DNA of 64,000 nt from Bacilli bacterium. Its GTDB lineage: Bacteria; Bacillota_I; Bacilli_A; ML615J-28; CAG-698. The stretch's first letter is position 1. The number at the start of each line of letters is the position of its first letter. The notes below the pieces were generated by a model. That model was not told the DNA's origin, ran no database searches, and saw only the letters and a program-made list of their open reading frames with translations. Shown piece after piece: positions 12,140 through 22,751 of this stretch. The position numbers were made by a program, and so were the translations under genes. The stretch spans positions 1 through 64,000 of the forward strand of contig JAFZWP010000013.1 in the NCBI GenBank assembly GCA_017617065.1. Reading direction: 5' to 3'.

Positions 12140-12952
12140 TCATATTAAAGATTTTAAAAACCTTATGATATCCTCTAATATCATCTTATCATCTTTACCA
12201 ATCCAATTTCTATTAGCTTTTAATAGTCTATTTAAAAAATGTTTATTAGAAAAAGTCTTTTCAAGCCTTTCAGTAATATCAATTATACTTCTTTCTTTCC
12301 TTAATTCATCATTAAATATTAGTACATCGAATGCTTTAACTAATCTATCCTTATTAACACATTTTATTAGATAAAAAATATCATAAATATCTTTGTATCT
12401 TGTTGAAAAGGGACCAAATCTTAAAATAGTTTTTATTTTTTCTGCAAATATTTGTTCTTTTGAGTTAATAAGTAAAGAGATGCCTTCATTATTAAATGAA
12501 AGGTCAAAGCAATAATCATCTTGCTCTAGATTGATATATTTATGTACTCCTATATCAATTTTACAGAAAAGTTTATTATTAAAACTGTCTTCTATACTTA
12601 AATGTACTCTTTTTCCATAATAATCTTGATGTCTAAGCCTCTCAGGGCTTCCAATAATTTTTAAAAATATGCCTTCTATACCATTCAAGTCATCAATAAA
12701 TCGTTTTATCGAATTATCATTAATCGAATGCCCTATAAAATCAAAATCAATATCTAGAGTTGTTCTACGCATATTACCTGCAATATTACGCATAGCAACG
12801 CCTCCTTTAATTGTTATGCAATGAACGTATTTACTCTTTGATATTAATAATAAAATAATATCTTGGCATAGTTTTGCTTCCGCATATTCATCATCATAAC
12901 CTAATTCTTTATTTCTTTTTGCTAATTCATAAATATTTAATTTGTTAATCAC
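12140..12952 (-). CDS. abiEii: AbiEii-type nucleotidyltransferase toxin
   Basis: Predicted toxin of a type IV toxin-antitoxin/abortive-infection pair (AbiE). The 270 residues carry the family's nucleotidyltransferase signature: ITIKGGVAMRN followed by RRTTLDIDFDF, then the conserved EQIFAEKIKTIL and RYKDIYDIFYLI segments. Related toxins transfer nucleotides (in some cases to tRNA) and stop growth. The start is GTG, overlapping the antitoxin stop by four bases (GTGA), typical of this operon type. Antitoxin-first order and overlap support a functional pair. Whether it defends against phage or only maintains itself cannot be read here. Confidence 0.88.
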   Translation of the reverse strand: MINKLNIYELAKRNKELGYDDEYAEAKLCQDIILLLISKSKYVHCITIKGGVAMRNIAGNMRRTTLDIDFDFIGHSINDNSIKRFIDDLNGIEGIFLKIIGSPERLRHQDYYGKRVHLSIEDSFNNKLFCKIDIGVHKYINLEQDDYCFDLSFNNEGISLLINSKEQIFAEKIKTILRFGPFSTRYKDIYDIFYLIKCVNKDRLVKAFDVLIFNDELRKERSIIDITERLEKTFSNKHFLNRLLKANRNWIGKDDKMILEDIIRFLKSLI

Positions 12953-13491
12953 AAAACTTCTTCTTGTATTATTTTATGAATCATTTCTTTTTTTGGAAAA
13001 TACGTAAGAATATCTAAAATATATTGAAAATCAATGTCATCTATTTGTTTACGATAATAATTAATGATTTCTTTATAATAATCATAATCTATCATATTCT
13101 TATAACGAATTATCTCTATTAATAGTCTCTCTTTAGAATAAATACTAATTTTAGTGCCTAAGTATTCAATACTTGTTTCACCAATATTTAGGATTGAATC
13201 ATCCATATAATATTGTTTAATTGAGGAAATATTGTACTTAGAACCACTTTTGCTTGATGCTATATAATACTTATCAGGAATTACATCACTAATTCCATAA
13301 TAATAAAAAGCAGACTGCATTGTAAAGATAGGATTATTATATTTTTTAATAAAAACATCGAGTGATCGATATTTAGTATCATCAGAATATAGTCCCTTTT
13401 CAATTTTATATATTTCTTTTTTTTCAATAGCTTTACTTAAATTATAACTATTTTTGTATTTTTCTATTGCTTCATAATAGTTGTAAATCAT
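12949..13491 (-). CDS. abiEi: AbiEi-type antitoxin
   Basis: Predicted antitoxin partner of AbiEii. The 180 residues fit the AbiEi plan: an N-terminal winged-helix-like region (about 1-60, with YNLSKAIEKKEIYKIEKGLY as its core) and a C-terminal domain (about 60-180) with the typical FTMQSAFYYYGISDVIP and YSKERLLIEIIRYK segments. Family members bind promoter repeats and repress their own operon. An AAGGTGG ribosome site precedes the ATG. The pair has low GC like the surroundings, so composition gives no sign of recent transfer. Confidence 0.85.
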   Translation of the reverse strand: MIYNYYEAIEKYKNSYNLSKAIEKKEIYKIEKGLYSDDTKYRSLDVFIKKYNNPIFTMQSAFYYYGISDVIPDKYYIASSKSGSKYNISSIKQYYMDDSILNIGETSIEYLGTKISIYSKERLLIEIIRYKNMIDYDYYKEIINYYRKQIDDIDFQYILDILTYFPKKEMIHKIIQEEVL

Positions 13492-16450: not shown

Positions 16451-17187
16451 TATTTAAAATTATTGCTACTAGCTAGCCCATATAAAGTTTTGATCTCATG
16501 TACAGTAAGCTCTCTTACTTCTCCTTCTTTTAAACCATCAATTGTCACACTGCCAAATCTAATTCTCGTTAGTCTTTTAACAGGATAGCCTAGCGTATCT
16601 AACATCTTTTTTACTTGATGGTTTTTACCTTCATTAATTATTAATCTAACTAAACTAGAATTATTTTTCTTATCATATTCTTCTATATAAAGTTTAGCAG
16701 GCCTTGTTACATAATCATCAACTTTAAAACCTTTAATTACTTTACCAATTAATTCTTTAGGAAAAATACCATCAACTCTAGCTAAATATTCTTTTTCAAT
16801 ATTTGATTTAGGACCTACTAACATATTCATAAAATCACCATCATTAGTTAGTAGTAATACGCCCTTCGTGTCACAGTCAAGTCTTCCTACTGGAAATACA
16901 CGATATGAATTAATCTCATCAGGTAGGATTGATATAACGCTTTTACGATTTTTTTCATCACTGGATGTAGATATTACTCCACGTGGTTTATTTAATACAT
17001 AATAAACATGTTCTTTTACTTCAATACTTTTACCATCTACAAGCACACTATCACCATCACTTACTTTAAATCCCATTTCGGTAATGATAGTACCATTTAC
17101 GCTTACATGGCCTTCAGAAATTAAAACTTCAGCTTTTCTTCGCGATGCCACTCCACATCTAGCTAAATATTTTTGCAGTCTTTCCAT
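16450..17187 (-). CDS. rluB: 16S/23S rRNA pseudouridine synthase, RsuA/RluB family
   Basis: Converts a specific rRNA uridine to pseudouridine. The 245 residues begin with an S4 RNA-binding domain (RLQKYLARCGVASRRKAEVLI), followed by the catalytic domain with VGRLDCDTKGVLLLTNDG, where the Asp of GRLD is the nucleophile, and the conserved EGKNHQVKKMLDTLGYPVKRL. The family covers RluB, RluE, RluF and RsuA; RluB is the usual single Bacillota member but the target site is inferred. The start lies 29 bases inside the preceding C26 gene, with a GGAG site at a long spacing. Likely cotranscribed with birA and the C26 gene. Confidence 0.9.
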   Translation of the reverse strand: MERLQKYLARCGVASRRKAEVLISEGHVSVNGTIITEMGFKVSDGDSVLVDGKSIEVKEHVYYVLNKPRGVISTSSDEKNRKSVISILPDEINSYRVFPVGRLDCDTKGVLLLTNDGDFMNMLVGPKSNIEKEYLARVDGIFPKELIGKVIKGFKVDDYVTRPAKLYIEEYDKKNNSSLVRLIINEGKNHQVKKMLDTLGYPVKRLTRIRFGSVTIDGLKEGEVRELTVHEIKTLYGLASSNNFK

Positions 17188-17812
17188 AGCTATCTAAATA
17201 CTCCTTAAATTTATTAATTAATGCTTTCGAGCTAAATGAAGATGCCATTTGTTCTGGATGCCACTGGCATCCTATAATTGGCAAATCTTCATGCATTACT
17301 GCTTCAATGTTTTCATCTTCTGCACAAATAGCGATTACTTTAAGCCCTTTAGCTAAATCTTTAATTGCTTGATGATGCATAGAATTAATACTGAACTTAT
17401 CTTCAAATAAAGGATCCATGCCAACCACTTCATGAAATCTATCTTTATGATTAGGAATATCTTGATACAAGCTTCCCCCTAAAAATACATTTATTGCTTG
17501 CATTCCTCTACAAATCCCCAAAAGTGGTATTTTATTATTAGCGCAGTATTCTACAATCCTTTTATCAAGTAGATCTATTTCTTTTAATGTGCAAAGACAA
17601 TTTTTGTTACTTTCCCCATAAAATGATGGATCTATATCATCACCACCACTTATGATAAAGCCATCACATGATGCTATCTTTTCATCTAAATAAATATCAT
17701 CATATTTTAAAACAACTGGTGATAGCTTGTTTTCCTCTAAATATTTAATATATTCAGGCTTAACAGCAAGTATATTTTCTTCATTTAATCTTGTAGTTAT
17801 TCCTATTTTCAT
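17159..17812 (-). CDS. Class I glutamine amidotransferase-like hydrolase (peptidase C26, PuuD-like)
   Basis: Predicted gamma-glutamyl hydrolase of the PuuD/C26 group, which cleaves gamma-glutamyl bonds such as in gamma-glutamyl-GABA. The nucleophile is in LGICRGMQAINV, the catalytic His-Glu in GCQWHPEQ, and MHHQAIKDLAKG is the family's conserved loop. I start it at MKIGITTRLNEE (217 residues), since that is where the family begins and a GGGG-type ribosome site lies upstream; the longer frame runs back into birA. No polyamine genes are nearby, so the physiological substrate is uncertain. Confidence 0.85.
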   Translation of the reverse strand: MKIGITTRLNEENILAVKPEYIKYLEENKLSPVVLKYDDIYLDEKIASCDGFIISGGDDIDPSFYGESNKNCLCTLKEIDLLDKRIVEYCANNKIPLLGICRGMQAINVFLGGSLYQDIPNHKDRFHEVVGMDPLFEDKFSINSMHHQAIKDLAKGLKVIAICAEDENIEAVMHEDLPIIGCQWHPEQMASSFSSKALINKFKEYLDSYGKTAKIFS

Positions 17813-17846
17813 CTTATTACCCCAAAAGATTTTATCATATCTATTA

Positions 17847-18815
17847 TTATTTGTTAACGATGATTCTAACTTCACCACTATTTAGGTTGACTTGCTTACC
17901 TTCAGCCTCAACTAGCAAACTACAATCATCATTTACTTTTAATACTAAAGCTTTATATTTTTCATCATTATATAAATTACATACTTCTACCGTTTTACCA
18001 ATTAGTAATTGATGAAGCTTATATGTATTTATAAAACTATAATTACCATTTAAATAATCTAAGTAATGAATTTTAAATTTCTTTAAAATAGTGCTAGCTA
18101 CCTTATTTAAATCATATGGTCGATCTAAAATAAAGGTTGCGATATCTTTAATTTCCTCATTTAAGCCATTTTTAGGTTTAAATAAATTAATACCAATCCC
18201 AATTACACAATAATCTAAGCTATTAGCTTCTATTTTAATAGCCCCTTCCGATAATATTCCACACACTTTTTTATCATTTAAATATAAATCATTAACCCAT
18301 TTAATACCTAAGTCGATATTTAATTCTTCAAATATCGCTTCATACACGCTAACTGCACTTAAAACTGTTAAATAAATGGAATTTTCTACTTTAATTTTAG
18401 GTTTAACTAATATTGAAAAATATAACCCCGCATCTTTAGGTGAATAAAACTTACGGTTTAGCCTACCTCTACCACTAGTTTGTTCCCTAGCAAATACTAC
18501 TTTTCCTTCGCTAAATTCTTCATTTTTAGATTTTAGATAGGTGGATGTGGATGTGATGGAATCAAATACCGATATATCATAGAATTTATCATCTAAATAA
18601 TGATTAATCACCTCTTTATTAACAAAAGGCACATAATCTACTAATTTATACCCCATATTTTGCTTAGAATCTATTTTTATACCTTCTTCAGCTAACTTTA
18701 CCACTGCTTTCCAAATTGCATTACGGCTCACACCTAAAATTGAAGCAATTTCAGATCCTGATATATAATCTTGATGATTTAATAATATTTTTAATAATTC
18801 TTCTTTTGTATTCAT
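17847..18815 (-). CDS. birA: Biotin-protein ligase with DNA-binding domain (BirA)
   Basis: Attaches biotin to carboxylases via biotinyl-AMP and, as a class II ligase, can repress genes. The 322 residues hold an N-terminal winged helix (about 1-62, ISGSEIASILGVSRNAIWKAV), the catalytic centre with TSGRGRLNRKFYSP and GIKWVNDLYLNDKKVCGIL, and a C-terminal SH3-like domain (about 272-322). Its promoter overlaps a 12-base inverted repeat of the form TGTCAACC-N14-GGTTGACA, close in layout to known BirA operators, so autoregulation is plausible. The first nine codons and this promoter are repeated 3698 bases away (22486-22589). Confidence 0.93.
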   Translation of the reverse strand: MNTKEELLKILLNHQDYISGSEIASILGVSRNAIWKAVVKLAEEGIKIDSKQNMGYKLVDYVPFVNKEVINHYLDDKFYDISVFDSITSTSTYLKSKNEEFSEGKVVFAREQTSGRGRLNRKFYSPKDAGLYFSILVKPKIKVENSIYLTVLSAVSVYEAIFEELNIDLGIKWVNDLYLNDKKVCGILSEGAIKIEANSLDYCVIGIGINLFKPKNGLNEEIKDIATFILDRPYDLNKVASTILKKFKIHYLDYLNGNYSFINTYKLHQLLIGKTVEVCNLYNDEKYKALVLKVNDDCSLLVEAEGKQVNLNSGEVRIIVNK

Positions 18816-18836
18816 AATTTCTACCTATTAATAGCG

Positions 18837-18865
18837 ATTATATAGTTATTTAAAAAAAATGTCAA
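18837..18865 (-). promoter_or_regulatory. birA: birA promoter
   Basis: Minus strand -35 TTGACA (18860-18865), 17 bases, -10 TATAAT (18837-18842): both boxes perfect. The -35 box is one arm of the inverted repeat at 18858-18891, so a protein bound to that repeat would block transcription. Confidence 0.88.
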
Positions 18866-18891
18866 CCTATCTTTGTTTTTAGGTTGACATT
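18850..18891 (-). terminator. Inverted repeat: terminator of lipoprotein gene and possible BirA operator
   Basis: Arms of 12 bases (18858-18869 and 18880-18891) around a 10-base loop, followed on the minus strand by eight T. As RNA it is a rho-independent terminator for the lipoprotein gene. As DNA it has the BirA-operator form TGTCAACC-N14-GGTTGACA and covers the birA -35 box. Either or both roles are possible. Confidence 0.75.
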
Positions 18892-18929
18892 TGTTTATAT
18901 ATCTTTTTTTGTTAATGAGAATATCTTTA

Positions 18930-19952
18930 CTATTCACACCAGATGCCTATAAATGGATTAGTGTATTCAAAGATGATACCACCGATTTTATCTTTTACTT
19001 GTATTTGAGCATGCTCCCATGGCCCATCATATATTACTGCATAAGCATCACCATATTTTCCATAATATTTCTTGATTTTGAAATCATCTTTATTCACATA
19101 CATTGTAGAACTGTATGTTAAATATAATTTGTCAATTATTTTGTTTTTAACGTTCTCATTAATAACTTCATCAAATTCTATTTTCTTTACAAAAATATCA
19201 TGAATTATTGTTAGATTTTCATAACTAATTATCCCTAGTTCGTATGCATCTTCCAAATTATAATGTTTCATACCCGTTTGATCTCCGTTTACATCAAGGG
19301 CAAGTCCAAAAAACTTTTTTCTAAAATTAGAATAATCTAAAGGTAATAATGAAATATATGTTTGACTATAATAAGGGGTTACATTTGTTTTATTGACAAT
19401 GCTAACAACAACATAACCGCTTCCATATACTTTAATATCCAAAGGAATAATCGCATCATTTGCATATGGTTGCATTAAGAAAACTTCATTATCATAATCT
19501 CCGTATAGTCGTTCCTCATACAATTCAAAAAACTGTTGATTGTCAACTAAAATGTTAGTATAAGGTAAGTCTAATAAATAAATATATGATGCAATATGGT
19601 GATTATCATTTATTAACTTATTATTATTTAGGAAACCACAATATCTCTTTTGAATAAACAATGAATCAAGTTCATTTATATCAATAATTGAATCAAGTAA
19701 AACGAAACCACCGTCTGAATTCAAATTATTTCCCCACTCTAAATTACTAATTAATTCATCAATGTCGCTATGAGAAAGTTGATAATCGTGTCTTTTCTCT
19801 AAATCATCATTGGTCAATATGAAATTAGTGCTAGTTGTTTCTTTTATATCATTATTATTGCAAGATTCATTGATGTTCAATGAGTCACTACTTGTACAAC
19901 CGCCAATAGCAAAAATCAAATACAATATAATTATTATAAATGCTTTTTTCAT
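18930..19952 (-). CDS. Predicted lipoprotein of unknown function
   Basis: A 340-residue secreted lipoprotein: signal peptide about 1-17 with lipobox AIGGC and an Asn/Ser/Thr-rich linker to about residue 45. I recognise no family in the rest, which alternates hydrophobic and aromatic strands (for example YVVVSIVNKTNV) and ends near IFEYTNPFIGIWCE. It has a clear AAAGGAG ribosome site and follows the subtilase gene by 127 bases on the same strand, inside the segment bounded by birA repeats. A partner role for the protease (inhibitor, substrate or immunity) is only a guess. Confidence 0.75.
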   Translation of the reverse strand: MKKAFIIIILYLIFAIGGCTSSDSLNINESCNNNDIKETTSTNFILTNDDLEKRHDYQLSHSDIDELISNLEWGNNLNSDGGFVLLDSIIDINELDSLFIQKRYCGFLNNNKLINDNHHIASYIYLLDLPYTNILVDNQQFFELYEERLYGDYDNEVFLMQPYANDAIIPLDIKVYGSGYVVVSIVNKTNVTPYYSQTYISLLPLDYSNFRKKFFGLALDVNGDQTGMKHYNLEDAYELGIISYENLTIIHDIFVKKIEFDEVINENVKNKIIDKLYLTYSSTMYVNKDDFKIKKYYGKYGDAYAVIYDGPWEHAQIQVKDKIGGIIFEYTNPFIGIWCE

Positions 19953-20079
19953 AAGATAACTCCTTTGTATGCTCTATAATAGTAATATGATTTGTGCTAG
20001 TAATCATAACATTTGCTTTTTGATCAATTATTTAAAAAATGCGAAATATTAAACAGTGTATATCCATTATTAGCCATTA

Positions 20080-22275
20080 TCAACGAACATAATATTTATA
20101 TTCCTCTTCTTCTGTAATTATAAAAGGTGGAATACGATTCATTTTTGTATACTTAGTTTCTTTATAAATAGTAAATGACAACGTACCATTCAAATAAGCA
20201 TCAATGTCTGCATCTGCTAACACTATTACTCCATTTGGTAATATATAACTTCCATTAATAGTTCTTGGAAGATTGTTTGAAGTAAATGGGACAATTCCCA
20301 TTGATGCATATCCTCCACAAATTATACATGTTTTATATGGCTGTCCTGGAGGAGTAGGCCCTTGTGTTATCGCATGCACTTGAGTATAACAATAACCACA
20401 TTCACATTCAACATTATGTTCAGTCAAGTTTAGCCATTCATATGAATAACTATGTATATGATTATATATAGATATTTGCGTATTAATTGTTCCACTTTGA
20501 GAGCCATTGCTAAACTTTACTCTTAAATAATATGTACCAGTTGATAAATATTTAATGAAATGATCAACATTGTTAGAATTGTTTAAATCTGTGTAACTTA
20601 GTTGATTAAAATTGCTATCATATAATATTACATCTATCGGATATGAAGCAGATATATTAAAATCATACTCATTTGAATATGTAACATTTAGTTTATAAAA
20701 ACCATTATCGTTAATAAAATAATCGTTGTTTGCTAATACAGTATGACTAATATTAATAGTATTACCGTTAAGAGTATATGGGATTGAAGCATAAGTTGTT
20801 AATGTGTACTTAACTGCCCCATATGCATCTAATCTACCATCAGCTACGCATAAATTATTAAATGGAGTACCCAAGTCATTTGTGATGGCACTATTAATTA
20901 TTGAAGATTTAATTATTGAGGCAATTTGAGATTTGGTATAATTAGCTGGTGAATTATCTAAAATATTCCACAAAATTGCTGCGGTTCCAGTCACATATGG
21001 TGTGGCCATTGAAGTGCCTGGCCATGAAATATATTCACTATCATCAACGTTTTCTGGAACAGTGCTAAGTATGTTATGGCCTGGCGCAAAAATGCTGACT
21101 GATTCTTCACCATAATTAGAAAGCGGCCATTGAACTGCCAAAGTTAAATCACCTGTAGAGAATTCCATATATGCTCCGACCGAAATCACTCTATCACTGA
21201 ACGATTGATTGTGTGAATAATCGGAAGGGTAAACTGGAATTATATCATTATTATCTGCTATTTCATCATCTCCACCATTTCCAGATGCGGCAATAAATAA
21301 GCCACTAAAAAATGCAATAGCATCTTTTCTAGCAACATTATCACTATCACCGCCACCACTATAATTAATTATGTCAACACCATTTACTGCTGCCCAATAA
21401 ATGGCCCTTGTAACTGCAGCTATATCCCATATATATTCTAGCTCATTGCTATCCCAATACGAAACTTGAAGTGGTATCAATTCAACATTCCAAGCCACTC
21501 CTGTTACTCCATTTGGATTCATGCCCGTAGCTCCAATAATTCCACTCACATGAGTTCCATGTCCATTAGGATCATTGCTTAATGGGCCAGGAGTATTTGT
21601 ATATATATCAGTCATATTCACAAAATCTCCACCGCTAGTTGAAATATTGGCAGATATATCTGAGTGATTAAACATTCCAGTATCAATCACAGCAACTTTA
21701 ATTGCAGAATTTCCGGTTGAAAAATCCCACGCTTCTTCAGCATTAATTCCAACTTCGCTATGTAATCCCCAAAGTAATGGATATCTATGTATTCCTGAAG
21801 GCGGCACCGAAGCAGAAGCAGGTTGAGCATTTGAATACTCATAATTATTGGGCCCAACCCATAAGACATCATCTATTTTCTCAATCTCATGTATTGTATC
21901 GATTACGTTTTGTTTTGTTTTTATCGTTAGTTTTAATTGCAATATTTGCCTAAATTCTTTCATATTTACCGATGATTCATCTGTTATTTTTATATTAGTA
22001 TATGTTAAATCGTAAATGTCATCTATCAATATGCCTGAAAAAAATGCTTTATCATATTTCTTGTTGACTTCACTTACATTTTTTTTCATTACAACTAAAA
22101 CACTACTATCATCAAAAGAATCATCTATTTTTACATTTGAATATAATTTCTCTTCAACATAATTTTTTGCAATTATGATAATGCTATTCCGAACAAGTAC
22201 AACCAGTGCTGTTAGCACAAGCAAAACTAAAGAACAAATTATCTTTAATATTTCATAAATAATTCTATTATTCAC
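20080..22275 (-). CDS. Membrane-anchored subtilisin-like serine protease (S8)
   Basis: A 731-residue subtilase with an intact triad: Asp in VAVIDTGM, His in GHGTHVSG, Ser in GTSMATPYVTG; the oxyanion Asn is in AASGNGG. An N-terminal hydrophobic segment (about 10-38) is a signal anchor, followed by a propeptide-like region to about 165. After the catalytic domain (about 170-490) come a PPC-like beta domain (about 500-605) and a Cys motif (CECGYCYTQVH...CIICGG, near 635-665) of a kind seen in clostridial surface proteins, probably metal-binding. The start is GTG with GGAG upstream. It lies between copies of the birA 5' region, suggesting acquisition by insertion. Confidence 0.92.
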   Translation of the reverse strand: MNNRIIYEILKIICSLVLLVLTALVVLVRNSIIIIAKNYVEEKLYSNVKIDDSFDDSSVLVVMKKNVSEVNKKYDKAFFSGILIDDIYDLTYTNIKITDESSVNMKEFRQILQLKLTIKTKQNVIDTIHEIEKIDDVLWVGPNNYEYSNAQPASASVPPSGIHRYPLLWGLHSEVGINAEEAWDFSTGNSAIKVAVIDTGMFNHSDISANISTSGGDFVNMTDIYTNTPGPLSNDPNGHGTHVSGIIGATGMNPNGVTGVAWNVELIPLQVSYWDSNELEYIWDIAAVTRAIYWAAVNGVDIINYSGGGDSDNVARKDAIAFFSGLFIAASGNGGDDEIADNNDIIPVYPSDYSHNQSFSDRVISVGAYMEFSTGDLTLAVQWPLSNYGEESVSIFAPGHNILSTVPENVDDSEYISWPGTSMATPYVTGTAAILWNILDNSPANYTKSQIASIIKSSIINSAITNDLGTPFNNLCVADGRLDAYGAVKYTLTTYASIPYTLNGNTINISHTVLANNDYFINDNGFYKLNVTYSNEYDFNISASYPIDVILYDSNFNQLSYTDLNNSNNVDHFIKYLSTGTYYLRVKFSNGSQSGTINTQISIYNHIHSYSYEWLNLTEHNVECECGYCYTQVHAITQGPTPPGQPYKTCIICGGYASMGIVPFTSNNLPRTINGSYILPNGVIVLADADIDAYLNGTLSFTIYKETKYTKMNRIPPFIITEEEEYKYYVR

Positions 22276-22450
22276 GACTTACTTTCTCCATTAAATTATT
22301 CTTTTTATTGATTACATTATATCAAAACTACTGATTAATACAATATAATTTTGCTAAATCATTGTAACACAGCACATAGATTAATTGCTTTTTTTTAATA
22401 TATAACAACTATTATAACTCTAATTGCGTCGATTTCATTAATTACATTGT

Positions 22451-22513
22451 TTAATATATAACAAAGATAATGCTTTTAATTAGTGTTTTTAATAATTCTT
22501 CTTTTGTATTCAT
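22451..22513 (-). pseudogene. birA 5' remnant
   Basis: A minus-strand frame starts with the same nine codons as birA (MNTKEELLK), then diverges and stops after 20 residues. The ribosome site, start region and promoter upstream are near-identical to those of birA. It looks like the scar of a duplication or insertion, not a working gene. Confidence 0.8.
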
Positions 22514-22589
22514 AATTTCTACCTATTAATAGCGATTATATAGTTATTAATAAAAAATGTCAACCTACCTATAAATATAGGTTGACGTT
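22486..22589 (-). repeat. Direct repeat copy B (birA 5' end and promoter)
   Basis: Matches 18788-18891 at a constant offset of 3698 bases: 63 identical bases, then two changes in 19, then arms of the inverted repeat conserved (one change) around an unrelated 10-base loop. Same orientation as copy A. Confidence 0.9.
22535..22563 (-). promoter_or_regulatory. Duplicated birA-type promoter reading into the subtilase
   Basis: Minus strand -35 TTGACA (22558-22563), 17 bases, -10 TATAAT (22535-22540). Both boxes survive in copy B and point toward the subtilase gene 260 bases away, so the island could be expressed with birA-like control. Confidence 0.7.
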
Positions 22590-22716: not shown

Positions 22717-22747
22717 TAAAAGAGACCATTTCATAATGGTCTCTTTT
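22717..22747 (-). terminator. Terminator after miaA
   Basis: Long stem aaaagagaccatt/aatggtctctttt with a four-base loop just past the miaA stop; T-rich on both sides, so it may work in both directions. It marks the end of mutS-mutL-miaA. Confidence 0.9.
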
Positions 22748-22751
22748 ACAT

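Follow-up and report, generated by a model that had tools for sequence, protein, structure and literature searches.

Subtilase and lipoprotein genes between two copies of the birA operator-promoter: a possible insertion with long target duplication

How could two genes come to lie between two copies of another gene's control region, with no recombinase gene beside them? This question is raised by a stretch of 64,000 nucleotides from a gut-type Bacilli bacterium (assembly GCA_017617065.1, contig JAFZWP010000013.1, positions 1 to 64,000), which is called the window here. In the window, a subtilase gene and a lipoprotein gene are enclosed by direct repeats that contain the promoter and the first nine codons of birA, both copies being in the same orientation. 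A sequence-only reading of the window had pointed out this repeat, and it was confirmed: 63 bases are identical (18788-18850 and 22486-22548), the two copies start 3698 bases apart, and the similarity extends over 114 nt at 89% identity. We hold with moderate confidence that recombination without a dedicated recombinase inserted the genes beside birA, and that this event duplicated a long operator-promoter segment and placed the protease unit behind a BirA-regulated promoter. The sample is one draft genome (24 contigs) of one strain, and the order of events is inferred.

Besides the 63-bp repeat, the window contains no exact repeat of at least 24 bp. In the 324 kb of the contig that were surveyed, it is the longest exact direct repeat with copies 0.3-15 kb apart, and the remaining exact direct repeats of at least 25 bp at this spacing are all within repetitive stretches at 94-96 and 169-173 kb. 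At G000:C18:169208-173050 (L151; G000 is this genome), one long gene or an array shows repeats spaced by multiples of 273 bp (91 codons), which is also present in the sister species. The sequence-only reading had proposed a search for the repeat elsewhere. Two copies only, plus the reverse match of the palindrome, were returned by a DNA search of the whole genome, and thus a dispersed repeat family was ruled out. Rfam gave no match above the gathering score.

We refer to the copy at birA as operator-promoter 1 (OP1) and to the copy upstream of the subtilase gene as OP2. On the minus strand, each copy consists of a palindrome whose right arm is the -35 element of a promoter matching at 12/12 positions, followed by a leader, the start codon, and nine birA codons. 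The palindrome has the same form as published predicted BirA sites (PMC545781: aTGTcAACC-[N14]-GGTTgACAg in its Table 1, and TTGTcAACC-[N14]-GGTTgACgA). Matches within two mismatches were as frequent as those of a reversed-pattern control, and therefore only near-perfect boxes were counted. With 0-1 mismatch, the only BirA boxes in this genome are those of the two repeat copies. In five genomes from another genus of the order, a TGTCAAC...GTTGACA palindrome is found upstream of birA, again with its right arm as the -35 element, and the BirA proteins of these genomes align over the helix-turn-helix (HTH) region as well. Since the box is conserved upstream of these five birA genes, the repeat unit, which is retained in both copies, is best read as a birA autoregulation module. 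Moreover, each palindrome together with its T-run folds as a terminator-like hairpin (for the RNA of box 1, -15.4 kcal/mol, z -5.7).

The two 114-nt copies differ at 13 bases. The differences are clustered, with none in the 63 bp and nine in the adjoining 39 bp (permutation p about 0.0009), and six of these nine are in the 14-bp operator spacer. The operator arms are changed at 1/16 positions versus 8/23 elsewhere in the divergent tract (Fisher p=0.056). This pattern suits recombination between two alleles, with operator function probably retained, and not the uniform decay of tandem copies. It bears on the main rival explanation, in which birA and its operator were duplicated in tandem and one of the two birA bodies was later replaced by the subtilase-lipoprotein pair through illegitimate recombination, the control region itself not being the target of an insertion. 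A tandem duplication would account for the common orientation of the copies and for a truncated copy that is exactly the birA 5' end beside the miaA-side flank, and deletions at short matches do occur in the genus, as in the tmk-site subtilase remnant of the sister species. However, the insert retains nothing of birA past codon ~13 and nothing of the adjoining gat gene, and the clustering would require that gene conversion refreshed the 63 bp. We consider this explanation doubtful, although it deserves to be weighed.

The sequence-only reading was also right that only a subtilase and a lipoprotein separate the repeats and that the island has no integrase. One product is a PF00082 protein with the Asp-His-Ser catalytic motifs VAVIDTG, GHGTHV, and GTSMATP, and the other is a lipoprotein without a family match in Pfam or NCBIfam. 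The lipoprotein is homologous to the extracytoplasmic part of an anti-sigma-like protein (27%, E about 1e-10 to 4e-13) whose gene is on another contig of this genome (G000:C21), between those of an extracytoplasmic function (ECF) sigma factor and a paralogous subtilase. The window subtilase and this paralogue are 44-49% identical overall. Their last 670 nt, which encode the C-terminal third (20165-20832 in the window, L081:10373-11044 in the paralogue), are 80.6% identical, the remainder about 50%, and the catalytic part 40-60%. At the C-terminal end, identity is only 55-57% between this genome and G001, the sister species and the only other genome of the genus that was compared (Bacilli bacterium RGIG10139, yak rumen). 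So the subtilase copies within this genome have exchanged sequence, by gene conversion or domain swap. At the paralogous locus, the ECF sigma factor, the anti-sigma-like sensor, and the subtilase form one operon upstream of tmk (L081:10295-14441). The C-terminal part of this sensor resembles the subtilase propeptide region, which suggests a protease/inhibitor-like link to the sigma factor.

Since the window subtilase is closer in its C-terminal part to its same-genome paralogue than either is to the sister's, the cargo is tied to this lineage and contamination is disfavoured. An assembly artefact or contamination that joined two loci through the 63-bp repeat is very improbable for further reasons as well. 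In its favour, the genome is a metagenome-assembled draft in 24 contigs with a contamination estimate of 5.1%, but the contig is 328 kb long, the rest of it shows synteny with the sister species (about 80-85%), and the repeat copies differ by 13 bases.

Related subtilase units occupy further sites in the two genomes. G001 has a lipoprotein-subtilase fusion that separates acpP from a transporter gene (G001:C9, L080:8393-11091) and, at the pepP site, a lipoprotein-subtilase pair that adjoins an ISL3 transposase. Both sites are empty in this genome, the neighbouring genes being directly adjacent. At the tmk site, this genome has the sigma factor, anti-sigma-like, and subtilase genes, and G001 retains a subtilase remnant only. 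These dispersed units, present in one sister species and absent from the other, support the view that such cargo is gained and lost. In the tmk-site remnant (L141:6762-8741, G001:C10), the start of the subtilase gene is joined to its end by a deletion, and the sigma factor gene is in two frames. Two starts of subtilase-associated lipoprotein genes in G001 (L079:225-373 and L080:8471-8623) share ~150 bp (89%) that include the promoter and the signal peptide, and then diverge, a further instance of a 5' end in duplicate.

The acpP terminator occurs twice in G001, once on each side of the acpP insertion, and once at the empty site of this genome, where it is closest to the right copy of G001. On this contig, we surveyed 17 differences of at least 500 bp between this genome and G001 (indels or replacements) against shuffled controls. 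Flanking repeats above the null were found only for the acpP subtilase and two repetitive or alanine-rich stretches, and the idea that indels in the genus commonly have long flanking repeats was thus rejected. The window island adds a second case, but since it was chosen for its repeat, the association between subtilase units and duplicated boundaries is suggestive only. That the subtilase-sensor units of this genus are a recombinase-free moving family is a long shot. Such a family would insert at transcription-unit boundaries, duplicate the boundary element (the operator-promoter at birA, the terminator at acpP), insulate itself, and, at birA, have captured a biotin-responsive switch.

Could the island instead be what is left of a site-specifically integrated element, with its attachment (att) site at the birA 5' end and a recombinase that was lost or acted in trans? 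Integration at a 5' end that restores the promoter and the N-terminus is documented for dusA islands and for SXT at prfC (PMC8409611), and an identical core with diverging flanks resembles attL and attR. However, the integrase is absent from the island, and the genome-wide search, which covered tyrosine recombinases and not serine recombinases, gave two (on contigs C15 and C16). Because they have orthologous counterparts with conserved flanks in G001, these two are probably Xer-type. No dif-like sequence is present in the repeat: its best match to dif is at rank 334-611 among the positions of the window, and Xer/dif-type integration was rejected on these ranks. The repeat core and the subtilase are both absent from viral contigs. 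A viral source was rejected, as IMG/VR gave neither an exact repeat core nor a subtilase relative. Furthermore, there is no other copy of the repeat, and the cargo is from a chromosomal gene family of the genus. Site-specific integration is thus unlikely, and a remnant of this kind improbable. The sequence-only reading had offered an insertion resembling those at att sites, or a duplication followed by gene gain. Gene gain with a duplicated birA 5' end fits, but the att analogy is weak, as there is no integrase, no dif, and a single repeat pair.

In the insertion that we favour, a subtilase-lipoprotein unit would have entered the birA control region and duplicated the operator-promoter. OP1, at which birA retains an intact 5' end with operator and promoter, would continue to drive birA under autorepression by biotinyl-AMP-bound BirA, and OP2 would now drive the subtilase and lipoprotein genes, leading to their expression when biotin is scarce. 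The palindrome and T-run of each copy could also terminate transcripts arriving from upstream, so that the insert would form a transcription unit of its own. RecA-type recombination between the direct repeats should precisely remove 3698 bp and restore the order miaA-OP-birA.

No predicted promoter ahead of the protease operon is stronger than OP2. Since OP2 lies ~260 bp from the subtilase start and a scan found no terminator-like site in between, the protease operon has probably joined the BirA regulon, with expression predicted to rise when biotin is scarce. It is also possible, although less likely than not, that OP2 is functionally irrelevant, that the protease genes use a promoter of their own, and that the repeat is a scar, which would be compatible with any origin. 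Nearer to the subtilase there are promoter-like sites at 22438-22411 (10/12) and 22325-22298 (9/12), but weak sites upstream of this gene are about as many as in shuffled sequence. OP2 has a 12/12 match and preserved operator arms, and no terminator-like site lies between it and the gene.

Several points weigh against the insertion and its proposed regulation. BirA control of the protease operon is predicted only, and weak promoter-like sites are closer to the subtilase. Among the genomes compared, no intact miaA-OP-birA without the insert was found, and thus the gain and its direction are inferred. At acpP, the duplicated element is short, at 46 nt and 78%. The tract beside the 63-bp core is short as well, and functional constraint or gene conversion could mimic the clustering of differences. 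The coordinates of the features are collected in Table 1.

Table 1. Features of the island and its flanks (window positions)
Feature	Position	Strand	Remarks
Repeat copy 1 (OP1)	18778..18891	-	BirA box, promoter, 5' untranslated region, and first codons of intact birA
Repeat copy 2 (OP2)	22476..22589	-	Upstream of subtilase
BirA box 1, TGTCAACC-N14-GGTTGACA	18860..18889		Perfect palindrome, 0 mismatches; one arm is the -35 element
BirA box 2	22558..22587		One arm mismatch (GGTTGACG); 6/14 spacer bases unlike box 1
Promoter 1, TTGACA-17-TATAAT	18837..18865	-	12/12
Promoter 2, TTGACA-17-TATAAT	22535..22563	-	12/12; ~260 bp upstream of subtilase start
Truncated birA 5' end	22451..22513	-	20-codon open frame MNTKEELLKTLIKSIIFVIY and stop; first 9 codons identical with BirA
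S8 subtilase	20080..22275	-	PF00082 E=1.3e-37; N-terminal membrane/signal segment; cysteine-rich C-terminal region
Lipoprotein	18930..19952	-	Lipobox ...AIGGC; homologous to anti-sigma-like sensor part at G000:C21
birA, intact	17847..18815	-	N-terminal HTH (group II); HTH_11 E=2.5e-15
Class-I glutamine amidotransferase (Peptidase C26; gat)	17159..17878	-	Start overlaps birA end
miaA operon terminator	22717..22748	-	14-bp stem, near-palindromic; scan lists + strand, folds on - too

The sequence-only reading had placed conserved core DNA on both sides of the island. This is true of the miaA side but not of the birA side. The gene order mutL-miaA-rluB is common in the family, with a miaA-rluB gap of ~80-150 bp in several genomes, and the BirA proteins of the family match only across the ligase domain. 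Therefore, birA-gat is lineage-specific here. That birA came recently by horizontal transfer from a known donor was rejected, as no BirA better than 1e-56 was found among 395 genomes of the class. We found nothing in the literature on birA as an integration site.

When the miaA-birA region was compared with G001, as the sequence-only reading had proposed, birA, gat, and a close rluB were all absent from that assembly, whose contigs break at this region and have transposon- or insertion sequence-like sequence at one end. The GNAT gene, which is downstream of rluB elsewhere, is close to the end of another contig. Near the start of contig C6 of G001 (JAGCUR010000016.1; L078:1-4085), miaA precedes the genes for a LacI regulator and a large secreted protein, so that the region just downstream of miaA varies within the genus. 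Elsewhere in the window (12140-13491), an AbiEii-type toxin gene (PF08843) with a small upstream partner is inserted between two genes that are direct neighbours in the sister species.

The locus can be compared with four known or related systems. It is like the group II BirA regulon of B. subtilis, S. aureus, and delta-proteobacteria in its HTH-bearing BirA and its palindromic operator, but the sites here (at most one mismatch) are at birA and the protease operon and not at genes of biotin synthesis or transport. The ECF sigma factor locus on G000:C21 has a paralogous subtilase and a homologous sensor domain, while the window island has a lipoprotein as the sensor, no sigma factor, and the reverse gene order. 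Islands at the 5' end of a gene, such as SXT at prfC and the dusA-specific islands, supply a promoter and an N-terminus (PMC8409611), and here too the target gene retains its promoter and start after the event. However, this island has no integrase and no mobilisation genes, it is 3.6 kb long and not tens of kb, its N-terminus is identical over nine codons, and its repeat is 63-114 bp and not an imperfect 21 bp.

Insertion with long target duplication is known from restriction-modification genes of Helicobacter pylori (Nobusato et al. 2000, Gene 259:99, as described in PMC1643837 and PMC3031569). As in those descriptions, the repeats here (63 bp exact, 114 bp at 89%) far exceed transposon duplications, and the insert carries no transposase, integrase, or other recombinase. 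The cargo is different, being a protease-lipoprotein pair in place of restriction-modification genes, and so is the duplicated target, which here is an operator-promoter with the first codons of a gene. The locus is a small but clear candidate case of a single event that inserts genes under a pre-existing repressor while the target gene keeps its own control. How genes without a transposase or integrase move and leave long duplications has been a question since the Helicobacter observations, and the birA locus, together with the sites in the sister species, offers a testable case outside restriction-modification genes.

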